Below, one piece after another: positions 3,576 through 60,780 of a stretch of 64,000 nt of DNA. A program made the position numbers and the translations under genes. The notes beneath the pieces are model-generated. The model saw only the letters and a program-made list of their open reading frames with translations. It had not been told where the DNA came from and searched no databases. Source of the stretch: Echinarachnius parma (Eukaryota; Echinodermata; Echinoidea; Clypeasteroida; Echinarachniidae); NCBI GenBank assembly GCA_037951105.1, contig JBAMJV010004303.1, positions 76,339 to 140,338 of the forward strand, read 5' to 3'. Numbering within the stretch: position 1 is the first letter of the stretch; the number at the start of each line of letters is the position of its first letter.

Positions 3576-4360
3576 ATTATCATATGAAAGGTAGTGTTGA
3601 GTATTGGTATTTCCCGAAGTGCCCCCCGATATTTTTTTGTGAGATAATGAAAAACTGACTGTCAAATTCAAAAGAACATACAATTTTAATGACAGAATAA
3701 ACTTTATTTGATCAACCATTTTCAGCCAAAATTATGCATGTGATGTTTTGTTGATATAATGATTAAATAGCGAGATCATCAACAACCATTTAAAAAACGC
3801 TTTTGAAATTTTTTGAAAAAGTGCAAGCATTTTTTTTATTTTTTCAAAAAATCATCTAATTATTTGGGCCCCAAATAATTATAAGATCAGATATATTTAT
3901 TGATATTTCAGCCGTTTCTGGGTCGATTTTGACCAAATGAAGTTTATTCTGCCATTAAAATTGCATGTTCTCTCAAATTCGACACTCAGTTTTTCATTAC
4001 CTCACAAAAAAAGTGCGATGTGCAGCACCCTCTCTACCAAAACTAAACTACCCCTTTAAACTTTATGGATATTTCAGCCGTTTCTGAACCGATTTTGTTC
4101 AAATAAAGTTTATTCTTTCATTAAAATTGTATGTTCTTTCGAATTTGACAGTCAGTTTTTCATTATCTCACAAAAAAATTGTTTGTGAAGTGCCCCCCTT
4201 TACCAACACTCAACTATCCCTTTAATATTGATATTGTTATTATTGTCAGTATTATTTTCATTATTATTATCATTATAATTATGTTTCGATTTATACAGCG
4301 CCTATCATGATTGATAATCATCTCAAACCGCTTTACAATGATATTATCATTGAAAGTGAA

Positions 4361-5552
4361 GTAAATCAAATCAAATCAATACAATTCCTGGGGAATTGAC
4401 GTCTTTATTTCCACAATTCATAAAAAGACACTACATATGTAAAGATGTTCAAGAACAAAAACAGCAATGTACAAGAACAAAAACAGCAATATACACGGAG
4501 ACTACAGAACATACAGAAAATATAAAACAGGTTTAAGAAAAACGATGTTTACATTAAGGCAATATGAATGTGGAGGGATCAGAAGAAGTTTTATAAAAAC
4601 TTATGGGTATGATCCCTAGGGTATATAGTAATAAAAATCAAAGTTAAAAAGAAAATCAATTTCGGTAAGTTTTACTTTATGCAATTGTCATGTTTCAAGT
4701 CAAACAATGCCAAGTCAAACACAGTTCAAACAAAAATTGTATACATATTTTTTTTTATGTCAGGAGTTATACATTTTCTAATAAAAGACTTTTTAATTTA
4801 ATCTTAAAGGAATTCAGTGAAACACTATCTTTCAATTCCTGTGGGAAATTATTCCATAAAATGGGACCTTTATATGTTATTATTGTATGCGAAAAATGAG
4901 TCCGTCCATAAGTAACACGAAGGTGGGATTTGGATCTGGTGTCATAATTATGCACATCGCTATTCTGAATAAATAATGAGTCGAATAAATTTGACAACAG
5001 TTGTTTATGGAATGAAAACATAAAAATGCCAAGATTATATTCATACAATTGATAAATAGGTAAAACCTTCAATTTAATAAAGAGAGGCTTAGAATGAGAT
5101 AAATAAGAAGAGTTTGTAATTATTCTAACAGCTCTTTTTTTGTAGTTTATGCAAACGATCCAAGAGGTAATTATTGCAACATCCCCAAAGTATAATACAG
5201 TAATTTAAATGTGGTAGTATTAAAGCATTATATAATAACAATAAAATATGATCAGGGAGATACTCTTGCAGCTTATTTAAGACTCCAATATTTCTTGAAA
5301 TTTTACTTATAACATTATTAACGTGGCTCTTCCATTTAATTTCCTCATCCAAAAAAACTCCTAAAAACTTCACAGTGTTCACCTTTTCAATTTTATCACG
5401 ATCAATAAATAATTCTATATCCATCACATTAGAATTATTCCCAAAGAGCATAAAATGTGTTTTTAGGGCATTCAAAACTAGTTTGTTTGCTAAAAACCAT
5501 GTATGAACTTTCACTAGTTCAACATTCATTATTACATTTAATTGATCAAAGT
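4361..5552 (-). pseudogene. 3' fragment of CR1/L2-group non-LTR retrotransposon, copy 2
   Basis: The duplicate of the 2.4-3.6 kb fragment, with the same A-run frameshift and the same truncation point, so both mutations precede the duplication. Confidence 0.8.
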
Positions 5553-35249: not shown

Positions 35250-38200
35250 ATGTGGGGTGGGGCCGGGAATTGCAATATTTTAATGTTGAAATGAGTAAAG
35301 GCACTGCTACAGAGTCTAACTTTTCACTGTAAGTTACATAAATATTTTGTTTAGACTTTTCTGTAAAGGCTGCCACTAATTTGAATATTTGTGAATCTTG
35401 GGTGCCAATAAATAGATATTATAGGAAATGACATGAGTGTATTCCTTGACACATACAAGTGCACACATAGGCATGTTTTGCTTTTGCGGTTATAGAGTAA
35501 TTAAAGGTTTTAAAGACACGTTTATATAGGTATAAGGTCAGACTAGTAGTGTCATTTCGCTGCCATTTTGTTCATGCAAATTCGATGATTACAAGTATTC
35601 TTCATTATAATTCATCCAAAGATTTAATAAGTATCATGATTTGATCAATCATTAGACTTCCAAAGTTAGGTTTTGATACTGTTTTTTAATTGATAGTTTA
35701 TAGACCTTAATTACCAAAAGAAAACTCATTTTATACCATTTTCAGTAATGACGGCCACTAATTTGCATATTCATAAGTCATGCATGTCACTAAATTCATG
35801 AGAATAATCTTTTTGAAAAACATGGATATGCACATCGCAGTTGTTTATTTTACTCGCCTATAGGCTAGTTGCCGAGTTATAATTAACAGGTTTTTTATTA
35901 GCTCAAAATATGGTCGAAAAAGTGTCAATTTGCGGCCATTTTGAATATGCTTATTATATTTGTATATGTAATTCGAGTAATTAACAAGCCTGGTGATTCA
36001 ATGAAACGTTCTCATTCAATTATTTGACTCACCGAAATTCACTGATTCACTGATTCGTTCGTGTTATAATCCAGTAGGCTTAAATTTAGCCCAACATAAC
36101 GCGTTTTGTATGACTTTTCTGTTACGGCGGCCACTAATTTGCATATTTATGCATCTTCTTTTCCACTAAGTATATCAGAGTTATCTAATTAGTGTTCCTA
36201 TTGATATACATCATTATTCTAGACATTTAATTTGCTAGTTCTGCTTGCCTGGTTGCAAAGTTATTAAATAAACCTGTTATACAAGTTTTTAAAATGTGTA
36301 AATTTGGCGGCCATTGTGTTTTTGCAAATTAGATGGTCAAAAATGCTTAATTTCGCTTGGGAACCGGGCTAATCAGATTCAGCACCCCACAATTATGAGA
36401 AATAGCTTGGTTCCCAACTTTTACCCCAAAATGCTCCTAACATGCACATTTTCCAGAAATCCCACTATACTATACCTTATTGACTCCCTTCTTTTTCTTC
36501 TTGGTGTGCTTTGACTTGAGTTTGTTCTCCCGATCCAGCCACAGCTTGTCCCAATACGCTTTCTCTTCTGCATCTGCAATGAAAAAAACAAAAAAAACAT
36601 TGATAACTACAATCCACACAATTCATGTCATCCAGTGAAAATAATCTGTGGAGGAAACTTGCTTTTATAAGAAAATAAACGGTTATATTACATTCATATC
36701 TCAAGGTATGAGGTTTTAAAAAGAACAAATTTATGTACATAAATAATAGAATCCACATATTTGTATTACAAACCCAGATTGATTATTTATTTGTATGAAA
36801 GCAATTATCTTTCAACTTTTTATATAAAACTGGGAGAACTGTCATTATGAACATGGGATTATCACAATATTTTGGACAAGCAGACAATTTCTGTCACTCT
36901 TCCTAAACTAATTCCAGATTCGATTTGTTTTTCTTAAGAGAGCCATTACACATTTTCAGGTATTCCAGGTTTGGGGAATAGGAACATGACAAATGAAAGA
37001 GAGCTGAATTGGGCTTCTGCACCGCTGTAAACATTTGTAACCGGCTATAGCAAAACCTTGCACTTGTCAGTAATTCATGTTTTGAAGAAATTGGCATTTT
37101 AATTTCACATAATGTGTGTAAAAGACTTATGAGTGTAAAATATGATCAGTCATATCTTCGCCAATTATTGACCAATTTGTTAGAACAAAGCGTCAAATGA
37201 AAGCTTGTGATGAGGCTTTTAAAATGGTATGAAAATCTACATTTTGATTTTTACCGACAAGCGCAGGGTTTTGCTATAGCCTGTCACATTTAACATGATT
37301 ATTTCCAAAGTGCAATGTACAAGTCATTCTCTCTCAACCAACGGTCTACTGTACCTGATATTTGTGTCATCGCTATGTGGGATTGGGTCATGTCCTTGTC
37401 TAGCACCATCTGAAGACCCTCAGCAGAATGGAACCTGACGTGGCCCTGTGTCTCACCATCAGGGAGGTCAATGTAAGCCACTGGACTCACTGCATCTAGC
37501 TGCTCCTACAAACACAATACAAATACAAAACAATAGACAGTCAGCTAATATCACATGGTCAGGTTTAAATATATTTTGTGATTGCCTCTGAGGCCAATCA
37601 GACGAGCGGAATCTGACATGGCCCTGTGTCTCACCATCAGGGAGGTCAATGTAAGCCACTGGACTCACTGCTTCTAGCTGTTCCTACAAACACAATACAA
37701 ATACAAAACAGTAGACTGTCAGCTTATATCACATGGTCAGGTTTGAATATGTTTTGTGATCGCTTTGCTCTGAGGACAATCAGGCAAATGGAACCTGACG
37801 TGGCCCCGAGTCTCACCATCAGGGAGGTCAATGTAAGCCACTGGACTCACAGCTTCTAGCTGCTCCTACAAACACATAATGGGCAAACAATAGAAACAAG
37901 ATAGTCAGATCATATCATATAGTCAGGAAATGTGTTTCATGATTGGTTAGATCTAACGCCAATCGGGCGAATGGAACCTGACGTGGCCCTGACCATTAGG
38001 CCACTGGGCTCATGGCTTCTAGCTGCTCTTATTAGCACATAATCTTAGTCTTGATTACATTTTGGTAGAGATTATTCAGGACCCAAACCTCCACCACCTA
38101 CAAACATTACCTCGAGGAGGCAATTTTAATGATTTTAATTGGTACATGAGAGAAGTATTTTGGTTACCAAAATGTAAAACAAAATGTATTGCCTATTTAA

Positions 38201-41200
38201 GCCCCTTCAGGACTAATTAATTTTTCTATATTAAATTTTCTGGACCAGTCCTGGTTGCGATTAATAAAATTACCCCTGACTCTCAATATTTGTTTGTGAA
38301 AACAGTTTTATTATAATGTATGGAGATCAAATCCTATTGTTTTGGCGCCAATTCTATTTTTGGTAAAATAAAAAAAACATAAATAACTTTGTGGCCCCCT
38401 GCCTAACTACATGGGGGTCTAATACTGATGGAGGCAACGCGTTACTTACTTTAATATCTTTCCTTGTCACTGTTGTATTCAAGCACCTCAGACCTAACAC
38501 AGTTCCCTTCACAAACTCTGGTCCGCTTATGTTTTCTTTACTAGACGGTTCCAACTTTTCTTCTATTGGTGCACTAGGTGTTTGCTGTAAAGCGGGGAAA
38601 AAATGAAACATGCAGTAATTACATGTAAATGAATTTGTTGACACTATTGTATTTATATGTATTATTGCTGCTACTTTTTGCACTAGAATGATTTATATAA
38701 TCCATGTATCTGTATACATCATACCAGTTGATGATTGCTCATTGCAAACAAAATTATATTAACACAAACACTAAGGCTTTGCATTACCTACCAATTGGCA
38801 AAGATTGGCAGAATAATATGAAATAAATACATGTACAGTCAAACCTGTGTATAATGACCACCTACATGTAAGGGATACAAGACAAGTGGCCACACAGACA
38901 GGTAACCTCTATCGAACGGTTTCATAACATTGCATTTCCCTGCAAAGGATCATTTTTCGTGGCCACTTTAGGCAGGTTTTGGTTGGCTGCTAAAGAAAGG
39001 TGGCCATAACAACAGCTTTGACTGTACTATATGTACATCACCTCACACATTTTAAAAGGCGAAAGGGTAGTTTCTTTAATAAAACAAAAGGCTATAATTT
39101 TTGCCAAACAGCATGAAAAGCCATGCACCTAAAATGACGTTATATGGTACAGTTGAAAAACATGACAGCATCCAGTGTTCAGTCAAAACAGTTGATAGCG
39201 GTATTAAAAATATTGATTATTTCCATGATTAGTGATACCCAAGAGGAAATATACTATTAGAAGCAACGGAAATGATGCACAAATCAGTATATGTAAGCGA
39301 AAGTGCCAGCGTTTGGCTCCACTTTAATGTGAATGATTACATACAGAAAGCTCAAGATAAGCATGACATGGAAAGTGTTGATACTCACAGCTGGTTTTGT
39401 GACGTGCTCTAACTCGGCATAGGTTGCAGGAGGCTCGTTCCAGGTGGAATGCTTCATGCGGGCAAGACACTCCTTCTGCAGGGTAAGGTACTCCTCTCTG
39501 AGATCCAGCCACTCCTTCCTGAAGAATGGATAAGATAATGTATTAATGAATGGATAGATAGATGGATGGATCATGGATGCATCGATTGATGGATGGATGG
39601 ATGAATGAATTGATGGTTGGTTCCAAACTGCTTCATGCAGGCAAGTCACTCCTACAGGGTAAGATACTCCTCTCTTAGATCCAACCACTCCTTCCTGAAG
39701 AATGGAATAGATGTATTAATGAATGGATGGATAGATGGATGGATGGATGGATGGATGGATGGATGGATGGATGGATGGATGGATGGATGGATGGATGGAT
39801 GGATGGATGGAAGGATGGATGGATGGATGGATGGATGGATGGATGGATGGATGGATGGATGGATGGATGGATGGATGGATGGATGGATGGATCATGGATG
39901 CATCGATTGATGGATGGATGGATGAATGAATGAATGAATTGATGGTTTGTTCCAAACAGCTTCATGCGGGCAAGTCACTCCTACAGGGTAAGATACTCCT
40001 CTCTTAGATCCAACCACTCCTTCCTGAAGAATGGAACAGATAATGTATTAATGAATGGATAGATGGATGGATGGATGGATGGAAGGATGGATGGATGGAT
40101 GGATGGATGGATGGATGGATGGATGGATGGATGGATGGATGGATGGATGGATGGAAGGATGGATGGATGGATGGATGGATGGATGGATGGATGGATGGAT
40201 GGATGGATGGATGGATGGATGGATGGATGGATGGATGGATGGATGGATGGATGGATGGATGGATGAATGAATGAATTGATGGTTGGTTCCAAACAGCTTC
40301 ATGCGGGCAAGTCACTCCTACAGGGTAAGATACTCCTCTCTGAGATCCAACCACTCCTTCCTGAAGAATGGAACAGATCATGTATTAATGAATCGATAGA
40401 TGGATGGATGGATCATGGATGCATTGATTGATGGATGGATGGATGAATGAATGAATTGATGGTTGGTTCCAAACAGCTTCATGCGGGCAAGACACTCCTT
40501 CTGCAGGGTGAGATACTCCTCTCTGAGATCCAACCACTCCTTCCTGAAGAATGGAACAGATCATGTATTAATGAATCGATAGATGGATGGATGGATCATG
40601 GATGCATTGATTGATGGATGGATGGATGAATGAATGAATTGATGGTTGGTTCCAAACAGCTTCATGCGGGCAAGACACTCCTTCTGCAGGGTGAGATACT
40701 CCTCTCTGAGATCCAACCACTCCTTCCTGAAGAATGGAACAGAGAATGTATTAATGAATAGATAGATGGATGGATGGATGGATGCATCGATTGATGGATG
40801 GATGGATGAATGAATGAATTGATGGTTTGTTCCAAACAGCTTCATGCGGGCAAGTCACTCCTACAGGGTAAGATACTCCTCTCTTAGATCCAACCACTCC
40901 TTCCTGAAGGATGGAACAGATCATGTATTAATGAATGGATAGATGGATGGATGGATGGATGGAAGGATGGATGGATGGATGGATGGATGGATGGATGGAT
41001 GGATGGATGGATGGATGGATGGATGGATGGATGGATGGATGGATGGATGGATCATGGATGCATCGATTGATGGATGGATGGATGAATGAATTGATGGTTT
41101 GTTCCAAACAGCTTCATGCGGGCAAGTCACTCCTACAGGGTAAGATACTCCTCTCTTAGATCCAACCACTCCTTCCTGAAGGATGGAACAGATCATGTAT

Positions 41201-44200
41201 TAATGAATGGATAGATGGATGGATGGATGGATGGAAGGATGGATGGATGGATGGATGGATGGATGGATGGATGGATGGATGGATGGATGGATGGATGGAT
41301 GGATGGATGGATGGATGGATGGATGGATGGATGGATGGATGGATGGATGGATGGATGGATGGATCATGGATGCATCGATTGATGGATGGATGGATGAATG
41401 AATGAATTGATGGTTGGTTCCAAACAGCTTCATGCGGGCAAGTCACTCCTACAGGGTAAGATACTCCTCTCTGAGATCCAACCACTCCTTCCTGAAGAAT
41501 GGAACAGATAATGTATTAATGAGTGGATAGATGGATGGATAGATGGATGGATGGATGGATGGATGGATGGATGGATCATTGGATGGATGGATGGATGGAT
41601 GGATGGATGGATGGATGGATGGATGGATGGATGGATGGATGGATGGATGGATGGATGGATGGATGGATGGATGGATGGATGGATGGATCATGGATGCATC
41701 GATTGATGGATAAATGGATGAATGAATTGATGGTTTGTTCCAAACAGCTTCATGCGGGCAAGTCACTCCTACAGGGTAAGATACTCCTCTCTTAGATCCA
41801 ACCACTCCTTCCTGAAGAATGGAACAGATAATGTATTAATGAATGGATAGATAGATGGATGGATCATGGATGCATCGATTGATGGATGGATGGATGAATG
41901 AATGAATTGATGGTTGGTTCCAAACAGCTTCATGCGGGCAAGTCACTCCTACAGGGTAAGATACTCCTCTTTTAGATCCAACCACTCCTTCCTGAAGGAT
42001 GGAACAGATAATGTATTAATGAATGGATAGATGGATGGATGGATCATGGATGCATCGATTGATGGATGGATGGATGAATGAATGAATTGATGGTTGGTTC
42101 CAAACAGCTTCATGCGGGCAAGTCACTCCTACAGGGTAAGATACTCCTCTCTTAGATCCAACCACTCCTTCCTGAAGAATGGAACAGATAATGTATTAAT
42201 GAATGGATAGATAGATGGATGGATCATGGATGCATCGATTGATGGATGGATGGATGAATGAATGAATTGATGGTTGGTTCCAAACAGCTTCATGCGGGCA
42301 AGTCACTCCTACAGGGTAAGATACTCCTCTTTTAGATCCAACCACTCCTTCCTGAAGGATGGAACAGATAATGTATTAATGAATGGATAGATGGATGGAT
42401 GGATCATGGATGCATCGATTGATGGATGGATGGATGAATGAATGAATTGATGGTTGGTTCCAAACAGCTTCATGCGGGCAAGTCACTCCTACAGGGTAAG
42501 ATACTCCTCTCTTAGATCCAACCACTCCTTCCTGAAGAATGGAACAGATAATGTATTAATGAATGGATAGATGGATGGATGGATCATGGATGCATCGATT
42601 GATGGATGGATGGATGAATGAATGGATGGATGGTTGGTTCCAAACAGCTTCATGCGGGCAAGACATTCCTACTGAAGGGTGAGATACTCCTCTCTTAGAT
42701 CCAACCACTCCTTCCTGAAGAATGGAACAGATAATGTATTAATGAATGGATAGATGGATGGATGGATCATGGATGCATCGATTGATGGATGGATGGATGG
42801 ATGAATTGATGGTTTGGTTCCAAACTGCTTCATGCGGGCAAGTCACTCCTACAGTGTAAGATACTCCTCTCTTAGATCCAACCACTCCTTCCTGAAGAAT
42901 GGAATAGATGTATTAATGAATGGATGGATAGATGGATGGATGGATGGATGGATGGATGGATGGATGGATGGATGGATGGATGGATGGATGGATGGATGGA
43001 TGGATGGATGGTTGGATGGATGAATGAATGGATGGATGGTTGGTTCCAAACTGCTTCATGTGGGCAAGACACTCCTTCTGCAGGTTGAGATACTCCTCTC
43101 TTAGAATGGAACAGAGAATATGTGATTGAATGGATAGATGGATGGATGGATCATGGATGGATGGATGGATGGATGGATGGATGGATGGATGGATGGATCA
43201 TGGATGCATCGATTGATGGATGGATGGATGAATGAATGAATGAATTGATGGTTGGTTCCAAACAGCTTCATGCGGGCAAGACACTCCTACAGGGTGAGAT
43301 ACTCCTCTCTTGGATCCAACCACTCCTTCCTGAAGGATGGAACAGAGAATATGTGAATGAATGGATGCTTGGATGGATATATAACTAGATGGATGGATGG
43401 ATTAATGGCTCACAGCATGTTTAGTGAAAATATTCCAGGTTTCTTGGATTTAGATTTGCATATTGATTTTCAATTACACTTATTATAAGCTAAAATCAAT
43501 ACACCAAGCTGATCGAATACAACAAATTCATTACACTCAATTTATGACCATTAGAATATTTTCTCTCATAAATTAATGCAATTTAAATGAAAAATGAGCA
43601 AAGAAAATGGGGGTTTCAGGGAAAAACAGAGATTAAGGTTTTTCTTTAGCTCAGCTTGTCTAGCAATCCAGGGGTCTTGGGTTTGAATCCAGGAGAAACC
43701 CCATTTTGTTTGCTAACTTTTCATTTATGTAATATATTTCTGGTCAGTTTCCCTATGTTTGCAAGAACTCACTTGGAGATTACTCTGAGAAAGAGCGAAT
43801 CTTCTTCCTCCTGCATTCTCCTGCTCAGCTTCTTCTTCCGACTCCTCTTCTTCTTATCCAGACTGCTCGCGTGAGACAGATCCGCAACAGACTCTTCCCG
43901 TGCGTCTTCATCTCCATCCCTCGTGGCTTTGCAGGAATCCCGTCGCTGCTTCTTGGCAATCTCGCATCTCTTGTCCGGTTTACTTTTGGTTTCTCCATCA
44001 CCAGTCTCTTCGTCCGTCTCCTCCTCTTCCTCCTCATCCCGGAACCTCACCTCCCACTTGTCCCCTTCGCTCAGGCTCCGCTTCCTCTTCATCATCCTCC
44101 TCCCCATCTGTATCAGGGCCAGTCTTGTCTGCTCTTGGCTTTGTTCTGTCCTACCAACATCATCATCACCATCCTCCTCCTCCTCCTCCTCTTCGACTTT

Positions 44201-47200
44201 TGACTTCTCTTTCCCACTCTCTATCTTCTCCTTTTCTGCAAAAGATGCTTTTCTCTTAGCCGATTTAGAAGCATCCTCTTTAACATTTGAAGAATCATCA
44301 TCATCATGTTTCCTTTTCAGTGTGTTCTTTGCATCACCCAAGTCTTTCACTTCGTCTCCAGGGGCAACCGGTTCTCTCTTGGTTTCTGCAGTTCTCTCTC
44401 TCACTGAGTCCTTTGCTTTCTTCTCCTTGTGATCTTGATCACCACGGTTACCATGACAATCAGCATTTTCAGATTCATCATCTAATCTACGCTTCCTCCT
44501 TTGCCTCTGTTTTTCCAAGTCATTGATCTTTGCCATCAGAATAGAAGAGCTTGCACTTTGTGTGTTGTCCTCCTCTTCCGCTCGTGCTTTCTTAGGGTCC
44601 CTATCTTTCCTCTTGTCTGAATATTGTTCCGACTTTCCCTGTTGCCGTTGCTGGTCTCCGGAGGAAACATTTTCTCTGTAACTGAGAGTGGAGTCAAAGT
44701 CAAGGGGAATGATTCTCTTCCGGCCTCTCATTGTGGGGAATTTGCCTGCTCTGGATCGGGCGTCTTGCGGCGGGTTATTCATCAGCTGAAGTGAGAGGGA
44801 GAAAATAATGAAATAAATAACTGACACAACTTACAAATGGTTAGGAATTCAGTTTGGTAATATAACCATTCAAATATCAGCATAACAAATATCAATAATT
44901 ATATTAGAACATAAATTACATTCTCAAAAGCCTTCCACCATAACAAAATACATCTTAATGGAAATAAATCATTGTAGTTTTATGTAAATATTTGTCATGA
45001 TTTCTCATTGGATGAAGTAGAATACAAAATCAGCCGAGTGAAATTAGACAACGCAAAATAGAAAATAAAACGTCTGATGGTTTGGATTGCCAAGTTGGTC
45101 AAGGAAAATAAGGAATAATTAAAGGGGACCACCAGGCAAAGAACAACACATAATTATATGTTTTGGTACCGTTTTGTGATATCAAATAGATACCCAACAT
45201 TTTGCAAAGGGTTGTGTAATTCATAAACAAAGCAATTAATTTCCACCACTTACGGAACCACTATTATTTCTTGGTTCTGTACAGGCCAAACATTTGCGAG
45301 TGCGCCAATGCTATTCACACGTACGTTTGGAGACAATAGAATCCCGGACGATTCGTTCGCTCTGGACAAAGTAGTCTTCGTTCATTCAGACCCATGAACG
45401 CATGCTTTAGAATGGTGATGTGTTTTCCATTTTTTTTTCTTTTTCTGGAAACATATTTTGGTGAACTTGTTGATGGAATGGACTACTAATGATGTTACTT
45501 TTCATGTATAAGAATATTATTTGTGGGTGGTGGTGCCTTTTAATTAAATGTATTACGTGCCCTGCATCTGACTTCCTGTGAAGTGTGGACACTATTAACC
45601 CATTCAGGACTCACTGAGTTTGTTATAACATGCTTTCTCTATAGACCCTAGACCAAGTATTTTTAGGGACCAGTCCTGAATGGGTTAAGCTTACGAGCCA
45701 ACACTTTTTTCAAGTGAAATCCAATGTGACTCAATTCAATCCCAGTGAATACCATTTTCCTATTAAAATTGCTTGTTCTCAGGATTTGTCCACATGTGAC
45801 ATTTTTTCTAAGAAGATTTTTCTAAATGATGTGTGAGATTCTCATAGAAAATTAATTATTTTAACCCAGTGAAACCAAGATCACATTTTATCTCTTTTCT
45901 TTTAGAATTTGAATTGAATTGATCATTTATTTCAAATCTCATAAAAACAATAACATTAACAAATCACATCAAAATTTACAAAATATAACAACAGATAAAT
46001 ACAATTATGAGAATGAGGAGACAGCTAGAAAGAGCAAAATAGCCTTATTAATGCTGCCACCGAATATATAAAATTGAATTAAAACCTACCTACATAACAT
46101 AGACATATACAACATGAAAAAAAAAAAAAAAAAAAACATACACATATACAATTTTAAAAGGCCTGACCTAAAAAAAAAAAATAATTATAAACATTTACTG
46201 TAACAAGATTAATCTATATCTCCGTTTAAAAGCTGATAGAGTGGGGCTTAGTTTTACATGTATCGGTAATTTATTCCAAATTTTTGGTCCTTTAAAACAG
46301 ATTGAGTTCATGGCTACATTATTATTTACACGCGGTAAACTATAAGTTAATTGATTTCGCATATTGTATGTATACTTATCGGAATTAAGATGAAACAAAT
46401 TTGCAAGACTACATGGAATCAAATCTTTAAAACATAAATACATAAATATAGCAATGTTAAAATTATTAAGATCAAATACATTCAATAATTTTAAATCACA
46501 AAATATTGGTTTGGTATGGGCAAGGTAGTGGGCATGATATACAAGTCTTACGGATTTCTTCTGTAAACGAAACAATCTCATCATTGAATAATTACAATTG
46601 TTAGCCCAAGTAGTATTACAATAATGGAGGTATGGAGAAATAATTGCATTATAAATCATTAATAAAATATTTCGTGGAAAAAATTTCAATCGATTTAAAA
46701 TACCAATACATTTAGAAAGTTTATTGCAGACAGTATCGATGTGGTCATGCCAAACAAGCTTACTATCGATCAAGACACCCAAAAACTTAAATGAATCAGC
46801 ACGTTGAATAATCTTATCATTCATACAAATGACAACATTATCATAATCAATTTTCTTGTGAGTAAAAAACATGTAACGAGTTTTATTTACATTAAGAACC
46901 AATTTATTTAATATTAACCATTGATTAATTTTAAACAATTCAAAATTAAAATTCAAAATTAAAGTATCAATATCGTCACCTGACATAAACACACTGGTAT
47001 CGTCTGCAAACAAAATAAATTGCAACTTATTTGAGACATTACATATATCGTTCATATAAACAAGAAATAAAAGTGGGCCAAGAATTGAGCCTTGGGGCAC
47101 TCCACATTCAATTGCACTCATATCAGATTTATGATTATTAATGACAACATATTGTTTACGATTTGACAAGTAACTTTGAAATAATTTTAAAAGGACACCA

Positions 47201-50200
47201 CGAATACCGTAATTATGTAACTTATATAACAAAATGGAGTGATCTAAAGTATCGAAAGCCTTACTCAAATCAAGAAACAAACCAAGTAATATATTTTTAG
47301 AATTAAAGGCTGAAGAAACTTTAGCAACTAAATCAATTATAGCAGAGGATGTGGAGTGCCCTGCTCTGAAACCATACTGTGTGTTAGATAAAATATCACA
47401 CTTTTCCAAGAAGTTTAAAAGCCGATTATATATACATTTTTCTAAAATCTTTGAAAAAACAGGTAACACTGAGATAGGTCTATAATTGTTAAGGCTTGAA
47501 CTCAGACCACTCTTATAAACCGGCGTTACTTTTGCCACCTTTAATTTATCCGGAAATATACCAGTGTTCAAAGAAGAATTAAATATATTGCACAATGGAA
47601 AACAAATTATGTGAATAACCTTTTTAATAATCGATATATTAATATCGTCACAACCCGCACTTGATCGATTCTGAAAATTACAAATTATAGTTACAATCTC
47701 TCCAGGAGTGATCGGTTTAAAAAATGCTGTCTGAGGATTTTCTTCCAAGTATTGCACAAAATCATTCTCATTAATATTATCACTTTGAAGGTGATTAGAA
47801 AGAGATATACCTATATTTACAAAATATTCATTAAACGATTGTGCTATATCATATTCATCTGTAATTTTCTGATCGTTAACTTCAATGCAATCGATCATAC
47901 TTGATTTTGAAGTTTTTCCTAATGCTTTATTAATTACATCCCATGTTTTTTTCATATTATATTTAACATCAGAAAACAATTTTTTAAAATAGGCATTTTT
48001 TATACGCTTAATTTCATTATTCACCTTGTTTCGAAATTCTTTATAAATACGTTCTCTATAAGCAGTTGGATTCTTAATAAATTGTTTATATAAATCATAC
48101 CTCTTTTTACACAATTTACGCAGCTCTTCATTAAACCAAGGCTTGTCTTTACGCAATTTAACAATCTTATTTTTTAGAGGAAAACATTCATCATATATTT
48201 CCATAAATTGATGTAAAAAATTGTCATACTTAACATTTGGGTCATTATTATTAATACGCCATGGTACTTTTTTCAATTTTTCAATAAAAATATTTATATT
48301 TCTATCACATAAATCACGTTTCTTTGTTATTCTACTTGTATCATTAACAAAATCATTATGAATACAATATATAGGAAAATGGTCACTAACGTCAACTAAA
48401 ATAATACCAGACAAAATATTGTTTAAGTCATTTGTAAAAATATTATCAATTAAAGTAGCAGAATGATCAGAAACACGGGTTGGAAAATGAATGACTGGGT
48501 ACATCGAATTACACATAAAAACATCTAGAAATTCGTTAACTTGATGACAAGAATGAGCGTCCAATAAGTTTAAGTTAAAGTCACCAGTAAAATATGAAAT
48601 GTTACTTTCTTTATTTACCTTATGAAGTACTGAAGTTAATGATTCAATAAATAATGGCAAGGATGAATTTGGTGGTCTATAAATAACACTAAATAAAATA
48701 TTCTTTGGGAAAGATTTAATTTCAATAAAAATACATTCAATAAAATCAGTAAATATATCTAAATCCAATCTATGTACAAATTTAAAATCATTACGAATAT
48801 ATGCACCTACCCCACCACCGACACGGTCTTGACGTGTATTACCAATAAAAGTATAGCTATCAACATTATAGACTGGGTCATTAGGTTTTAGCCACGTCTC
48901 TGTTAAACCAATTGCACAAAATTTATTATCTATACTGTCCAAAAATAAAGAGAAACTATCAAAATTTTTCTTAAGGCTTCTACAATTAAGATGCAAATAT
49001 GAAAATCGATTATGTATCTGTTGCTCTTTAAAAAAATCATTAAACTCATTTGGGAGAAAATAATTCTGGTTCGGACCATAAATAGAATCTTCACTATCAA
49101 TAGGAGATAATAATTCAGTCAGTTTCAACAAATATTTCGTGTGATGCATCCCATTTAACATATTATGAACAATCAAAGTTTCACAATTCTGATACTTTTG
49201 ACTAGAAAGGGTTTTCCAATTCAAATATAAAATATCTCCATATAGAATTTTGAAAAATCAAAACCCATTTAACCCCTTGACTACGGGAACCAGGTGGGTT
49301 GTGTACAAAGTTTATGGGGATTTCATAAACTCATGGGGAACGGGTTACCAAACAACAATGAAAGAAGAAAAGAAATGTGAAACTCCAAAAACGGTTCAAT
49401 TTCACAAAGTTAATGGATCCCTTTAACCACTTGACTACGGGAACCGGGTGGGTTGTGTACAAAGTCTATGGGGATTTCAGGAACTCGTAGTGAACGGGTT
49501 AATAGTATTTACCTCACATGCTCGACCAGCCTCTTGCGGGGTTTCAAATTCCACAAATGCAAATCCCTTGATGTCATTGGTCGACCTGTAGCGCGGCAGA
49601 CTGATGTACACCACGTTGCCGCAGTGAGAGAAGGCTCTCTTCAACCAATCGTGGTCGGCTTTCCTTGGCAGGCATTCCTGAAAATCAAATAGAAAGTAAA
49701 ACATTCTTCAATCACTACAAAGACACAAATGTAAAATAAAAAGTTTAAAATTCTCAAATGACTATACAGTACCATAATACAAAAGACGTTGACATACCAG
49801 AGAACAGTGAAATTTTGCTCATTTCTGAAGATTTGTCAAGCAAAGTGATGTGTAGGACATTGTACCAGTTAGACAATTTGTAACAAGACCATTGTAAATT
49901 GGCATCATGCCAAACAAATTTAAGAGAGTTACCTAAATGGCTTCATGCAGGTAAGCTTGCCAAATAGCATGTTTCAGCCTTATATGATAATGTAAAATGG
50001 ACACTTCGAAATCTTAACCCATGGATATTTGCCAGAGTGGGCCCAAAGTGTATACTTACCACATAAACCATGCAATCATCTGGGTCATGCTTTGGGGTTC
50101 CGAGGGGGAGTTTCCTTCGCACCATGTTTCCGTCCTTGCTCAGCTCCAGCATTGACGATTGCTGCACTGCCATGACAACCGTCTTCCGGTCGGTTGTCAT

Positions 50201-51793
50201 GTTCTTGATCTTGTTGAAACTGGCGATGACATCCAAGCTCACATCTTTATTGAAAGGGTTAAGAAAAATGTAATACAAATAAGTATGTAACATAAATGAA
50301 AATGTAATATAAATAAAAAGGAACACAAAAAAAAACAGTAAACTACAAAGCCCTTCTGACGGTCGTTCGTCTCTGCAACCCTCTTCAAAATCTGTGATGG
50401 TCAGAAGCCCTTATAAACCTGGTGAAAACCCAAAGGATAAGAAATGTACGATGGATCACTGAACTGATGCAGCTTTAACACAAATAATTTCAGAGAAAAA
50501 ATTAACCAGAAATAAAAACAAAAATGCATAAAGGTAATAGGATTTCCCAGGGGGAACCATATATCTATTTCGTGTTGTTCTCCCTCTGTTTGCAAAAATT
50601 AAAAATAATCACCTTAAAGGGGTAGTTTAGTTTTGGTAGAGAGGGCGCTGCACATCACAATTTTTTTGTGAGGTAATAAAAAACTGAGTGTCGAATTGGA
50701 GAGAACATGCAGTTTTAATGGCAGAATAAACTTTATTTGGTCCAAATCGACCCAGAAACGGCTGAAATATCAATAAATATATCTGATCTCATAATTATTT
50801 GGGGCCCAAATAATTAGATGAATTTTTGAAAAAAATAAAAAAATGCTTGCACTTTTTCAACATTTTTCAAAAGCCTTTCAAATGTAAATAGTTGTTGATG
50901 ATCTCGCTATTTAATCATCATATCAATAAAACATCACATGCATTATTTTGAATGAAAAATGGTTGAAACCAATGCCTTTTTATAAAGCGCCCCCGTTTTA
51001 ATGGCTCTTTTTGAATGATAACAGGCTTTTTACTTGGTCGTTTATAATTTTGTATACCTTTCGATCATGATGGCGTTATAACTATTAGTTTATAATGTTA
51101 CTGTGCAGGTTTTGGCTACTTAAGTTCAGCCTTGCCAAAACTAAACTACCCCTTTAATTGTAACTATTAAAATTGACCTACAATTTTGTAATATTTTAAA
51201 ACGTACAATTAAAAACAAATCACAGATTGTACAACATACAGTCTCGATACTCGATCACAGCCCACATCCTACAGGTACAGGACCAGGAAAAGGCTACCAT
51301 TATGCACTTATTCATATACTACCGGCATTATATTGTTGTGTATCATAGGCACTGCATGTTTTTTTGAATGGGAACACATACCATCAAATCATGTATTTTC
51401 ATACTACTTGTATGACCATTTACATTGAAGATGTGCCGATATAACCATTTCTTACTCCTTACACAGCTACAATGCAAATGGTCATACTAGGGTATAACCA
51501 TAATTTACCATTTCCTGGGAGCACAGAGTACATAGACAACACATGGGTGGAGGTCAATAATCAAAACACCAACCATACATTGCCATTGCCCATGACAGCC
51601 ACAGCCTGCTACACACAAACAGTATGGTGAACATGTCTGTGTTGAGTGATTTCTTACATCTTTGATCAGATTTGGTCATCTCCTTTTGTAGAAAGCGGTC
51701 GTTCCTGAGGTTTGCGTCGCTGAAGTAGAACTCAACTTGCCGACAGACGTCCACCATCACCTTCTTCAATCGCTTCCGGGGTTTCTTCTCCAT
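27049..51793 (-). CDS. LARP7: LARP7, La-related protein 7 (7SK snRNP), nine coding exons
   Basis: Exons (- strand, in order): 51793-51658, 50244-50060, 49677-49513, 44785-43773, 39518-39389, 38584-38450, 37505-37355, 36573-36476, 27114-27049. All eight junctions have GT/AG and matching phases and give 692 codons. Domains: La motif (~res 8-100, with FYFSDANL), RRM1 (~105-180, with GNVVYISLP and KGFAFVEFE), Lys/Glu-rich linker (~180-490), a short helix [13 protein letters not shown], and xRRM (~560-670, RNP3-like YID and helix [12 protein letters not shown]). LARP7 binds the 3' U-tail and last stem-loop of 7SK snRNA and stabilises the nuclear particle that holds P-TEFb inactive; it also assists U6 modification. 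The vertebrate protein is ~580 residues; the extra length here is linker. Introns 1, 3, 4, 6 and 8 carry mobile or tandem repeats. Family assignment is firm; the exact N-terminus is inferred. Confidence 0.93.
27282..27974. mobile_element. TTAA-flanked element with telomere-like TIR
   Basis: Perfect 19-bp inverted termini TTAACCCTAACCAGGCCGG (27282-27300) and its complement (27956-27974). The inner sequence is AT-rich, with a GC-rich right side. Located in LARP7 intron 8, 167 bp from the last exon. Confidence 0.8.
29920..29946. repeat. G-tract
   Basis: A run of about 18 G after GGATGGAGG; one of many such tracts in the window. No gene was seen from 27975 to 29245, nor from 29950 to 31440, apart from AT-rich DNA and a second G-run near 30680. 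Confidence 0.6.
31440..31700. repeat. Minisatellite of CCAACGTTGGCC units
   Basis: Variants of GGCCCAACGTTGGCCC and GACGTGGGCCCAACGT recur about ten times in both orientations. The unit is itself close to palindromic. Confidence 0.75.
32605..33537. mobile_element. Foldback family D, complete copy
   Basis: TIRs begin TAGTATAGGTTTTCCCATCC and end GGATGGGAAAACCTATACTA. The interior is built of subrepeats such as TTCAATTTCGTC and its complement. 933 bp, no ORF. It defines the family seen at 1-616 and 6955-11580. Confidence 0.8.
33567..33586. repeat. 20-bp perfect palindrome
   Basis: TTCGATTGCGCGCAATCGAA, placed immediately left of the DR1-bearing element. Confidence 0.8.
33589..34517. mobile_element. 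Element with ~150-bp tandem units carrying nuclear-receptor-like sites
   Basis: Ends TTATGCCTCCGC and GCGGAGGCATAA are inverted. Five tandem units each contain CTGTGACCTTGACC and CTTGAGAT. Units 3-5 contain TGACCTTTGACCT at 33971, 34122 and 34273. A GGACGTAC 12-mer array follows (34395-34470), and then a GC-rich hairpin CCTCCGGCCACTTCGTTGG precedes the right end. Confidence 0.75.
34700..35280. repeat. Low-complexity block: C-tract, (GT)n and telomere-like repeat
   Basis: A C-tract at 34810-34827, (GT)n at 34855-34889 and 35203-35246, CCCTAACCCTAACCCTA at ~34916, and repeated GGTTGGACGCAGAA at ~35070 and ~35110. No gene. Confidence 0.8.
36476..36573 (-). CDS. LARP7: LARP7 coding exon 8: xRRM helix alpha3
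   Basis: Encodes [20 protein letters not shown] followed by a Lys-rich run ending GVNK. This is the extended C-terminal helix typical of xRRMs that inserts into the RNA stem-loop. Acceptor CATTGCAG|AT, donor AAG|GTATAG (phase 1 in, 0 out). The inverted-repeat arm of a large mobile element ends only ~35 bp past this donor. Confidence 0.9.
37355..37505 (-). CDS. LARP7: LARP7 coding exon 7: core of xRRM
   Basis: Encodes [20 protein letters not shown] then [18 protein letters not shown] and onward. AYID is the atypical RNP3 signature (Y-x-D) of xRRMs, and the Arg of HVRF is a usual RNA contact. Acceptor TTTGTAG|GAG, donor TCAG|GTACAG (phase 0 in, 1 out). Two clear partial copies of its 5' half with the acceptor, plus one decayed copy, lie just upstream at 37.59-38.03 kb. 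Confidence 0.9.
37590..38031 (-). pseudogene. Tandem partial copies of LARP7 exon 7
   Basis: Copies start at 37683 and 37865 with the acceptor TGTAG and codons [19 protein letters not shown], then diverge after ~75 nt and have no donor. A third, decayed copy (~38028) has lost the AG and carries an internal deletion. Spacing from the real exon is 178, 182 and ~163 bp. Copies lie upstream of the real exon in the transcript. Confidence 0.85.
38450..38584 (-). CDS. LARP7: LARP7 coding exon 6: entry into xRRM
   Basis: 45 codons, phase 0 at both ends. The second half, [20 protein letters not shown] followed by RKDIK, corresponds to beta1 and the start of helix alpha1 of the C-terminal xRRM. The first half is unstructured and Ser/Glu/Pro-rich. 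Acceptor TTTACAG|CAA, donor AAA|GTAAGT. Confidence 0.88.
39389..39518 (-). CDS. LARP7: LARP7 coding exon 5 (parental copy of a partial-exon array)
   Basis: Encodes [19 protein letters not shown] followed by [19 protein letters not shown] and a short tail, matching the conserved helix between linker and xRRM in LARP7 family members. Acceptor TTCTTCAG|GAAG, donor GCT|GTGAGT; phase 2 in, phase 0 out. It is the only copy, of the 18 similar sequences between 39.4 and 43.4 kb, that keeps both an open frame and a usable donor, so it is taken as the functional exon. The other 17 lie upstream of it in the direction of transcription. Confidence 0.88.
39690..43345 (-). pseudogene. Array of 17 partial LARP7 exon 5 copies
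   Basis: Exon-like copies with a 3' splice site (TTC[T/C]TCAG|GAAGG or close) begin at 39694, 40023, 40360, 40543, 40726, 40903, 41175, 41491, 41811, 41991, 42171, 42351, 42531, 42714, 42891 and 43329; one at ~43.1 kb lacks the acceptor. All replace the end of exon 5 with CTGTTTGGAACCAACC-like sequence and lack a donor. Most read a stop or frameshift at CTGTAGGAGTG; those at 40543 and 40726 stay open through [12 protein letters not shown]. Five consecutive copies are exactly 180 bp apart, with alternate units nearly identical (a 360-bp higher-order repeat). Confidence 0.9.
39720..43220. repeat. (TGGA)n microsatellite expansions within the exon 5 array
   Basis: Long GGAT/TGGA runs at 39727-39890, 40050-40265, 40935-41050, 41210-41365, 41525-41690, 42920-43020 and 43140-43200, with CATGGATGCATCGATTGATG between. 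Short arrays in other units show the expansion differs from unit to unit. These give spurious WMDG and HPSI ORFs. Confidence 0.95.
43640..43735 (+). repeat. Degenerate copy of the tRNA-like SINE in LARP7 intron 4
   Basis: TTTAGCTCAGCTTGTCTAGC and a B-box-like GGTTTGAATCC are followed by the same tail (CCCATTTTGTTTGCT) as the copy near 1 kb. A shorter tail-only remnant (GGAATCCCATTGTGTTTGCT) lies near 28.99-29.02 kb. Confidence 0.55.
43773..44785 (-). CDS. LARP7: LARP7 coding exon 4: charged linker
   Basis: A 1013-nt exon, residues 163-499 plus two bases. It opens [17 protein letters not shown], the conserved end of RRM1, then becomes a low-complexity Lys/Arg/Glu/Asp linker with acidic runs (for example [13 protein letters not shown]) and clustered basic tracts that could act as nuclear localisation signals. 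It ends [12 protein letters not shown], a conserved segment ahead of the exon 5 helix. Acceptor TTCAG|CTG, donor TCCAA|GTGAGT (phase 2). Long ORFs on the opposite strand here are composition shadows. Confidence 0.9.
45119..45543. mobile_element. TTAA MITE family F, complete copy
   Basis: Ends TTAAAGGGGACCACCA and TGGTGGTGCCTTTTAA. The interior contains TTGCAAAGGGTTGTGTAATT and ATCCCGGACGATTCGTTCGC. Other copies: 14855-15110 (inside the hAT-like element), 24000-24290 in part, and 63000-63400. Confidence 0.75.
45595..45688. mobile_element. 94-bp TTAA micro-foldback
   Basis: Perfect termini TTAACCCATTCAGGACT and AGTCCTGAATGGGTTAA with a ~60-bp interior. Related half-ends (TTCAGGACT, AGTCCTG) lie near 28.86 and 38.21-38.27 kb. 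Confidence 0.8.
45907..49250 (-). mobile_element. Near-complete CR1/L2-group non-LTR retrotransposon in LARP7 intron 3
   Basis: Same strand as LARP7. Contains one long ORF (49224-46195). The 3' end on the - strand is AGATTTGAAATAAATGATCA then CAATTCAATTCAAATTC, a pentamer-like tail rather than poly(A), as is usual for this group. The 5' end near 49250 is approximate; target-site duplications were not found. Confidence 0.85.
46195..49224 (-). CDS. Retrotransposon endonuclease-reverse transcriptase ORF, 1009 codons, uninterrupted
   Basis: N-terminal APE-type endonuclease (~res 70-310): [35 protein letters not shown] and the catalytic VSDHFPIYC. Reverse transcriptase (~500-790): [73 protein letters not shown] and the active site FADDTSVF. 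C-terminal region: [17 protein letters not shown] and [13 protein letters not shown]. All catalytic residues appear present and no stop or frameshift is seen, so the insertion is young. No separate ORF1 was seen. Jockey-superfamily (CR1/L2-like) placement is from motif pattern only. Confidence 0.92.
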   Translation of the reverse strand: MNWKTLSSQKYQNCETLIVHNMLNGMHHTKYLLKLTELLSPIDSEDSIYGPNQNYFLPNEFNDFFKEQQIHNRFSYLHLNCRSLKKNFDSFSLFLDSIDNKFCAIGLTETWLKPNDPVYNVDSYTFIGNTRQDRVGGGVGAYIRNDFKFVHRLDLDIFTDFIECIFIEIKSFPKNILFSVIYRPPNSSLPLFIESLTSVLHKVNKESNISYFTGDFNLNLLDAHSCHQVNEFLDVFMCNSMYPVIHFPTRVSDHSATLIDNIFTNDLNNILSGIILVDVSDHFPIYCIHNDFVNDTSRITKKRDLCDRNINIFIEKLKKVPWRINNNDPNVKYDNFLHQFMEIYDECFPLKNKIVKLRKDKPWFNEELRKLCKKRYDLYKQFIKNPTAYRERIYKEFRNKVNNEIKRIKNAYFKKLFSDVKYNMKKTWDVINKALGKTSKSSMIDCIEVNDQKITDEYDIAQSFNEYFVNIGISLSNHLQSDNINENDFVQYLEENPQTAFFKPITPGEIVTIICNFQNRSSAGCDDINISIIKKVIHIICFPLCNIFNSSLNTGIFPDKLKVAKVTPVYKSGLSSSLNNYRPISVLPVFSKILEKCIYNRLLNFLEKCDILSNTQYGFRAGHSTSSAIIDLVAKVSSAFNSKNILLGLFLDLSKAFDTLDHSILLYKLHNYGIRGVLLKLFQSYLSNRKQYVVINNHKSDMSAIECGVPQGSILGPLLFLVYMNDICNVSNKLQFILFADDTSVFMSGDDIDTLILNFNFELFKINQWLILNKLVLNVNKTRYMFFTHKKIDYDNVVICMNDKIIQRADSFKFLGVLIDSKLVWHDHIDTVCNKLSKCIGILNRLKFFPRNILLMIYNAIISPYLHYCNTTWANNCNYSMMRLFRLQKKSVRLVYHAHYLAHTKPIFCDLKLLNVFDLNNFNIAIFMYLCFKDLIPCSLANLFHLNSDKYTYNMRNQLTYSLPRVNNNVAMNSICFKGPKIWNKLPIHVKLSPTLSAFKRRYRLILLQ
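49265..49500. repeat. Direct repeat of ~75 bp, period ~156 bp
   Basis: TTGACTACGGGAACC[A/G]GGTGGG then TTGTGTACAAAG at 49277 and 49432. A short dispersed-repeat pair lying between the retrotransposon and LARP7 exon 3. Confidence 0.7.
49513..49677 (-). CDS. LARP7: LARP7 coding exon 3: RRM1
   Basis: Residues 108-162, phase 0 at both ends. It carries most of RRM1: beta1 region [19 protein letters not shown]2-adjacent [11 protein letters not shown] and RNP1-like [13 protein letters not shown]1 packs against the La motif, and together they hold the UUU-3'OH end of the RNA. Acceptor TTTTCAG|GAA, donor GAG|GTAAAT. Confidence 0.92.
50060..50244 (-). CDS. LARP7: LARP7 coding exon 2: second half of La motif
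   Basis: Residues 46-107. Visible segments are [19 protein letters not shown] and [10 protein letters not shown], the winged-helix half of the La motif and the linker to RRM1. The acceptor is AATAAAG|AT and the donor ATGTG|GTAAGT; phase 1 in, phase 0 out. The acceptor has a weak pyrimidine tract but is the only one that keeps the frame. Confidence 0.88.
50614..51157. mobile_element. TTAA MITE family A, complete copy in LARP7 intron 1
   Basis: Begins TTAAAGGGGTAGTTTAGTTT and ends AAACTAAACTACCCCTTTAA. 544 bp; best-preserved member of the family and a good reference for the TIR. Confidence 0.85.
51658..51793 (-). CDS. LARP7: LARP7 coding exon 1: start and first half of La motif
   Basis: Encodes residues 1-45, beginning [12 protein letters not shown] and running into the La motif signature [19 protein letters not shown]. 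The ATG at 51793 is the only in-frame start after an in-frame TAA at 51874-51872. The basic leader matches the KKR-rich run before the La motif in other LARP7 proteins. The exon ends AGA T|GTAAGA (phase 1). The codon completed across the junction is TAT, giving the Tyr-Val pair expected there. A pyrimidine-rich acceptor near 51930 suggests the exon also carries 5' UTR. Confidence 0.88.
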
Positions 51794-59259: not shown

Positions 59260-60219
59260 CAGTCCGTTATTCCGAAGATTCGTTATTCCGAAGGTTCAGT
59301 TATTCTGAAGGTTCAGGTTATTCCGAAGGTCTCGTTATTCCAGAAGGTTCGTTGTATTCCGAAGGTTCGTTATTCCGAAGTTCGTTATTCCGAAGTTTCG
59401 TTATTCAGGGTCGTTATTCCGAAGGTATCGTTATTCCGAAGCTCGTCTTGAGTCCGAAGGCTCGTTATGTCCGAGGTTCGTTATTCCGAAGTTGTTATTC
59501 CGAAGGTTCGTTATTCCGAAGGTTCGTTGATCCGAAAATAAAATCGGGTTCGTTAAGTCCGAAGGTTCGTTAGTCCTAAATTGAAATAGGGTTCGTTAAT
59601 CCGAAAATTAAATAAATACGGACGTAGAAAAGAATTGAGTTGATTTGATTTTGAGCAGAGTGTGACTTGGGAAAGGGGATCAATCTTACTCTAATTTGCC
59701 GTGGCTGCATAAATATGGGGGGGGAGGGGGGGGGGGGGGGGGGGGTGGGGGAGAAGGGGAGGGGGGGCAAAGAGTGAGCTTTACAATTCTAGTCAAATTG
59801 TATTTCATTTTCTTTTGTAAAACAGTGCCAATAAGAACGAGATATATATATTTATATCTTTCTCATGTAAAAAAACATGAAATAGAAACCCAAATAAATT
59901 TGATATAATTATTACATTATGTCATAAAGTTAGATTTTGCTGTTTGATATCAGTCCAAAATCACATTTTATTTGTCTGAATTGTATGTATTTCATCCATA
60001 TAATAGCAACCTAAGGGCAGGGTGTGAGGAGGGGGGGGGGAGGGTGTTCCCCCCCCCCCCCCCCCCCCCCCCCCCGTTAGGGAGCTTTGGCATTTTTAAA
60101 ACTGAAACTCGTGCAATCAGAGTTTTTACTCTCTTTTCCATAAAATTAGATAAAAGCATGATTTAAATTGATTTGGGAGGGGGGCCCATGACACCCCCCC
60201 CCCCCTCCACCACTACGCC

Positions 60220-60306
<87 letters not shown>

Positions 60307-60780
60307 CACACACACACACAAACACACGCACACACACCCTATTTCATTTTCGGATTAACGAACCCTATTTCATTTTGAGGACTAACGAACCTTCGGAATA
60401 ACGAACACGATTTCATTTAAGTGTAGGACATAGCGAACCTTTCGGAATAACGAACCTTCGGAATAACGAACCTTCGGAATAACGAACCTTCGGAAATAAC
60501 GAACCCGATTTAATTTTAGGAATAGCGAACCTTCGAATAACGAACCTTTCGAAATAACGAACCTTCGGGAATAACGACCTTCGGAATAATGCAACAATGT
60601 TCGGATTAACGAACCCTATTTCATTTTCGGATTAACGAACACTCAGGTATAGGAAATTTGCGTGTTCGTAATAACGAACCTTCGGAATAACGAACCCTTC
60701 GGAATAACGAACCGCACGCCACTGTTCGGAATAACGAACCTTCGGGAATAACGAGCCGCACCCGTAAATTTTTGCTGGTC
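59260..60780. mobile_element. Foldback (TU/FB-like) element with arms of tandem 16-bp subrepeats
   Basis: The left arm (59265-59600) is an array of TTCGTTATTCCGAAGG units, about 18 with indels. The right arm (60350-60770) is the inverse, units of CCTTCGGAATAACGAA, about 20. The spacer holds CGGATTAACGAACCCTATTT variants, G-tracts and a 110-bp CA run. Inverted arms made of short tandem subrepeats are the hallmark of foldback elements, including the TU elements of sea urchins. Confidence 0.75.
60224..60340. repeat. (CA)n microsatellite
   Basis: About 110 bp of nearly pure CA inside the foldback element's spacer. Confidence 0.95.

Follow-up and report, generated by a model that had tools for sequence, protein, structure and literature searches.

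The window analysed here, a 64,000-nt stretch of the Echinarachnius parma genome (contig C4301, positions 76339-140338; 1.2 Gb in 14,790 contigs), contains a LARP7 gene in which the start of exon 5, together with its acceptor, recurs many times inside the preceding intron. This locus raises the question of whether such a row of acceptors acts on splicing of the gene or is a by-product of repeat expansion; an earlier note on this DNA had left both readings standing, mis-splicing or regulated LARP7 output on one side and benign expansion by unequal exchange on the other. The analysis favors expansion. With a probability of roughly 80%, the array is a minisatellite of the type described in amphioxus as a "mirage", grown by unequal exchange, with decoy acceptors that are largely ignored by the spliceosome; it would thus be a long example of its kind and no special device.

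The array (39519-43345, minus strand, as are all LARP7 features below) comprises 17 partial copies upstream of the genuine exon 5 and is interleaved with (TCCA)n. Its unit of ~180 bp joins the end of intron 4 to approximately the first 70 of the 130 nt of exon 5. The array takes up 3827 of the 4254 nt of intron 4, i.e., 90% rather than the last two-thirds described in the earlier note, and perfect TCCA dimers cover ~35% of it. A 70-nt probe from the start of exon 5 gave 18 matches in the window, the genuine exon and the 17 copies, and none in any of 20 resamples of the window drawn from a first-order Markov model. The 17 upstream copies had been counted correctly, but only 16 of them keep the AG of a 3′ splice site; 17 acceptors are reached only by including the genuine one. 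In a truncated copy (43052-43105), both the acceptor and the first bases of the exon are missing. The compared core of the unit at 42331 is identical to that of the unit at 41971, and the units at 42511, 42151, 41791 and 40003 have one and the same core, which fits a 360-bp higher-order unit.

The gene itself appears secure as LARP7, in agreement with the original call. Its La-motif exon (in part, 51660-51790) matches Pfam La (PF05383, E = 1.8e-11) and its C-terminal xRRM matches RRM_3 (E = 6.4e-15), with the xRRM model PF19977 just below cut-off (22.1 vs 23.7 bits); the La motif and C-terminal xRRM that together mark LARP7 are therefore both present. La-related protein 7 is the top PDB sequence match for the La module (2.5e-25) and for the xRRM (1.3e-14), and it is also the sole PDB match up to E 1 (7slp, E = 7.5e-6) for the stretch of exons 4-6, exon 5 included. 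The matched PDB entries are presumably those of the human protein. Exon 3 (RRM1; 49514-49677) is single copy in the window. Exon 4 (43773-44785) has its 3′ end at 43773 with the donor CAA/GTGAGT, and the genuine exon 5 (39389-39518, 130 nt) lies between the acceptor AG at 39520-39519 and the donor GCT/GTGAGT, the reading frame being kept across the exon 4-exon 5 junction. The genuine exon 7, which encodes the xRRM, is located at 37355-37505.

Besides the window contig, C5317 and C6056 also contain copies of exon 5, and the LARP7 La exon is found in the same three contigs, labeled A (the window), B (C5317) and C (C6056). Their colinear blocks extend over ~37-43 kb; 14-27 kb of this can be aligned, at mean identities of 92.0-94.7%, with large indels between. 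Because the alignment is colinear and many kinase exons likewise occur twice in the genome, at equal or near-equal scores on different contigs, the three contigs are best read as haplotypes left separate in the assembly. The number of upstream exon 5 copies is 17 in A, 8 in B and 3 in C, and the genuine exon is placed last in the array in all three. Exons 4-8 form a single open frame across their joins in the window and in C5317, and the frame of C6056 is broken in exon 7. Synonymous and nonsynonymous divergence (dS 0.051 and dN 0.010 between A and B over exons 4-8; dS 0.047 and dN 0.015 between A and C over exons 4-6) indicates that LARP7 remains under coding constraint.

Across the contigs the first unit is conserved, with identities of 96.0, 97.1 and 99.0%, and contigs A and B share identical compared cores in the unit pairs A13/B08 and A14/B07. 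Homogenised interior units and distinct edge units are clear in A and weaker in B, where copy 03 is likewise similar to the edge unit; contig C holds too few exon 5 copies for this comparison. Judged by these unit identities within and between contigs, the pattern is that of tandem-repeat turnover.

A non-LTR retrotransposon-like element occupies ~45905-49136 of the window, in the LARP7 intron ahead of exon 4. It matches RVT_1 (E = 4.8e-34), with two endonuclease models under their cut-offs, and its stop-to-stop frame (46195-49257, minus strand) extends open into the flank. The element is absent from C5317 and C6056, though both align on its two sides, and it looks like an insertion private to the window contig.

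Splice sites were scored with simplified matrix frequencies and not with a trained model, and the scores are valid for comparison between copies alone. The AG is kept in 27 of the 28 upstream exon 5 copies of the three contigs. These 27 decoy acceptors have crude pyrimidine scores of 2.3-6.4, the genuine ones scoring 4.8, 6.4 and 4.9. Every copy lacks the exon's 3′ half and its donor; the best donor 20-135 nt into each decoy scores at most -1.3 in all 27, against 1.7 for the genuine donor, so that, by this simple matrix, the 16 window decoys bear out the earlier note's statement that a donor is confined to the last copy. A stop is encountered within 17 codons in 22 of the 27 decoys, and the other five are open for 55-192 codons. 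Two of the latter are the window copies singled out in the earlier note as frame-keeping. Each runs for 55 codons before a stop, their AG beginning at 40545 and 40728, and their compared cores are identical to C5317 copies 07 and 08, respectively. The remaining 14 of the 16 window decoys with an AG stop within 15 codons.

LARP7 contains a second array of the same kind, which goes beyond the earlier finding. Three partial copies of exon 7 lie upstream of the genuine exon (37587-38028), with starts at 38028, where the AG is absent, and at 37865 and 37683, where it is kept. The upstream exon 7 copies number 3, 5 and 6 in contigs A, B and C, with the AG kept in 2, 4 and 5 of them. An internal donor-like site is present in 10 of these 11 AG-bearing copies, in seven as ATG/GTGAGA (4.7) and in three in a near form (2.2-2.3); the window copies at 37865 and 37683 both hold ATG/GTGAGA. 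The genuine exon 7 also contains an internal ATG/GTGAGA, which by the crude matrix (4.7) scores above the exon's own donor (0.3). As read from these scores, the internal site is a possible alternative donor. The start of exon 3 is a third case: four upstream copies, all with an AG, are found in C6056 and none in A or B, where exon 3 is in the unduplicated state; CTT is common to the exon and intron sides at the join. Two of the C6056 copies match the first 47 nt of the exon, and the match of the other two, which have a short insertion, begins at base 8. LARP7 seems, therefore, to display boundary duplication at three ages.

The frequency of such structures elsewhere in the genome was estimated from 44 exon matches (8 kinase, 30 helicase and 6 exons of one CCT gene). 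The sample is small, non-random and biased to strong Pfam matches, whose ends are not exact exon ends, and it includes likely allelic pairs (e.g., L033/L034, L040/L041, L044/L045) and matches with internal stops. Partial copies were found near 10 of the 44 (kinase 3/8, helicase 5/30, CCT 2/6). Kinase locus L026 has three acceptor-plus-exon copies at ~170-bp spacing, 85-96% identical, the acceptor region having diverged in the oldest; the other two kinase loci with copies are diverged. The copies at L023 and L025 show divergence (76-77%), and at these two matches and at L046 they stop short of the match edge.

Local tandem duplications account for 12.8% of the 148,058 sampled bases, and 9.2% of bases have a duplication of at least 25 bp on either side. 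The window's own figure is 12.5%, or 6.8% minus the exon 5 array. Local tandem duplication thus appears common here, where common is relative to expectation, with no other animal genome as a measured control. Upstream copies cross the match start at five control matches and downstream copies cross the match end at three, L030 showing both. These 8 crossings compare with ~8 expected (88 boundaries at the 9.2% background), a rough comparison in which no enrichment at boundaries is shown; for the 8 exons of LARP7, ~1.5 crossings are expected and 2 are found in the window. Because the observed crossings equal those predicted by the background, nothing in these counts points to duplication aimed at splice sites. 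Two ideas were discarded in the course of this comparison. An acceptor bias was dropped: the three LARP7 arrays are all acceptor-side, yet acceptor- and donor-side copies both occur among the controls. A device specific to LARP7 was rejected after 3 of 8 kinase control loci, and then 10 of the 44 matches, had partial exon copies.

In the helicase matches L030 (C2030) and L031 (C8910), the 3′ part is repeated downstream (3 and 1 copies, respectively) and the 5′ part once upstream. The two matches may represent one gene on two haplotypes, and what is copied could be small exons in their entirety.

The closest parallel known to us is provided by the amphioxus mirages. Those of the globin genes are tandem units of a 3′ intron end plus a 5′ exon part, 150-160 bp long; the BflGb6 mirage has 6 and 3 units on two haplotypes, its interior, unlike its edge, being homogenised (PMC3087553). 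Besides the globins BflGb6 and BflGb9, Adh3 is cited as a host (PMC3087553), and troponin C and PGBD5 are further ones (PMC3902484). The Adh3 mirage shows somatic length instability. The LARP7 array resembles these structures in its tandem units, part exon and part intron, that lie over an exon-intron boundary, in unit length (~180 bp vs 150-160 bp in BflGb6), in homogenised interior units with edge units apart, and, if the contigs are haplotypes, in a unit number that differs between haplotypes. Acceptor-side and donor-side cases are seen both in this genome and among the amphioxus mirages. The differences lie in the host, which has the echinoderm mitochondrial code whereas the mirages were described from amphioxus, in the 17 upstream copies of the longest LARP7 contig compared with 6 units in BflGb6, in the admixture of (TCCA)n, and in the involvement of three exons of one gene across the three contigs. 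On the basis of its boundary-spanning unit, complete last copy, length difference between putative haplotypes and interior homogenisation, the LARP7 array is best classified as a mirage-type minisatellite. No report of mirages in echinoderms was found among the papers listed by literature search, which is weak evidence of absence as most subscription papers were outside its reach.

By this reading, a tandem duplication across the intron 4/exon 5 boundary would have left part of the exon, acceptor included, duplicated ahead of the intact exon, and it would be tolerated because the intact exon remains beside its donor. The copies and the (TCCA)n tract would then have undergone unequal exchange and slippage to give 3, 8 and 17 upstream copies, and array length would continue to drift because copies and tract keep recombining. 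Because the decoys have no usable donor, exon definition should favor the last copy, the sole one with the rest of the exon, and mature LARP7 mRNA should be mostly normal. Occasional use of a decoy acceptor would lead to a stop within 17 codons in 22 of the 27 cases and probably to nonsense-mediated decay. The same kind of duplication takes place at other exons of the genome, local tandem duplication being common.

Several points weigh against the minisatellite reading. The presumed normal splicing of LARP7 is carried over by analogy from amphioxus; moreover, the amphioxus work itself allows that mirage copies could act as cryptic sites (PMC3087553). The decoy acceptors are undecayed, with the AG in all but one of the 28 upstream copies, which also fits their use or conversion from the genuine copy. 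The status of the contigs as haplotypes is inferred: one diploid has two copies, so that a pooled sample or an extra copy is needed, and a recent segmental copy among the three is possible. In C6056, exon 7 and exon 8 each contain a single additional base (99040-99191 and 99979-100077), reflecting either sequence error or a damaged copy. Finally, the background rates come from a small, biased sample with likely allelic pairs, internal stops and off-edge copies.

An alternative is that the array regulates LARP7, with decoys and their early stops diverting transcripts to decay or intron retention and array length setting output. Decoy acceptors do score like genuine ones by the crude pyrimidine measure, and most decoys stop early; these intact acceptors and early stops are the whole of the positive support for mis-splicing or regulated output. 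Among the AG-bearing exon 7 copies, the donor-like sites, present in all but one, score above the genuine donor, and 49-nt frameshifting cassettes are conceivable. The genuine exon 7, however, has the same internal site, the exon 5 decoys have no donors, the upstream copies range from 3 to 17 within a constrained gene, the same build recurs at unrelated genes, and the amphioxus mirages are reported as apparently leaving regular splicing undisturbed (PMC3087553, PMC3902484). Decoy exons of the OGT type, which occur in retained introns, offer a partial likeness (PMC12017769), as intronic acceptors could engage the spliceosome unproductively; they have an acceptor and a donor, a combination missing from the exon 5 copies and approached by the 10 exon 7 copies with a donor-like site. 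Literature searches yielded no paper on LARP7 with exon duplication, and among the matches listed for LARP7 with poison exon and decay nothing concerned this gene structure. Regulation is considered unlikely. Benign expansion is the better supported of the earlier note's two readings, given the 17, 8 and 3 copies on contigs read as haplotypes, the identical and shared units, the constrained LARP7 and the partial exon copies at other genes.

That the repeat was inflated or scrambled during assembly is very unlikely. In its favor, long (TCCA)n tracts pose difficulties for assembly, identical units occur, and an amphioxus mirage was aberrantly assembled in a draft genome (PMC3087553). Against this, the array is present in three contigs, free of N and with units both distinct and shared, and mis-assembly would not readily account for the older, diverged copies of exon 7. 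The earlier note's own caution about an artefact thus has little force for the array itself, and it is the exact exon 5 copy numbers that are uncertain. Alternative exons in the making, as in arrays of mutually exclusive exons, are less plausible again. Five of the 27 exon 5 decoys stay open for 55-192 codons and most AG-bearing exon 7 copies hold an internal donor-like site, but every exon 5 copy is without its 3′ half and donor and 22 of the 27 decoys have early stops. Mutually exclusive arrays consist of several complete exons with both splice sites, whereas the exon 5 copies cover ~70 of 130 nt. Human internal tandem repeats at exon-intron boundaries (PMC2812944) are similarly variable in number and can affect splicing; they differ in belonging to primate-specific paralogs, with new introns that have RNA support.

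A broader interpretation, on which we place little weight, is that boundary duplication is a standing genome-wide process that supplies length-variable rows of splice sites, and that array length measurably alters LARP7 output. If true, the process would provide raw material for new exons and introns and would make splicing noisy in an allele-specific way, LARP7 being an extreme case. As a mirage-type repeat, the array adds a genome with the echinoderm mitochondrial code to the amphioxus record of a little-known repeat class and suggests that the class is common in that genome. The natural rows of 3-16 upstream acceptors in versions of one gene offer a test of exon definition versus acceptor competition, and the LARP7 arrays could also be used to test intron or exon gain through boundary duplication.

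Other repeats were observed in the window. Two ~600-bp stretches (1920-2518 and 3896-4495), spaced 1976 bp apart, have their inner tandem repeats in common and lie near mutually repeating open frames. At 59265-60713, two arrays face each other; their 16-17-bp units are mutual reverse complements (CGTTATTCCGAAGGTT / ATAACGAACCTTCGGA), and (AC)n and homopolymer runs lie between them. Read in the echinoderm mitochondrial code, the genome's one COX1 match is free of stops; its sole AAA codon stands for Asn and its ATA codons for Ile, which we take to be the residues of echinoderms at those positions.

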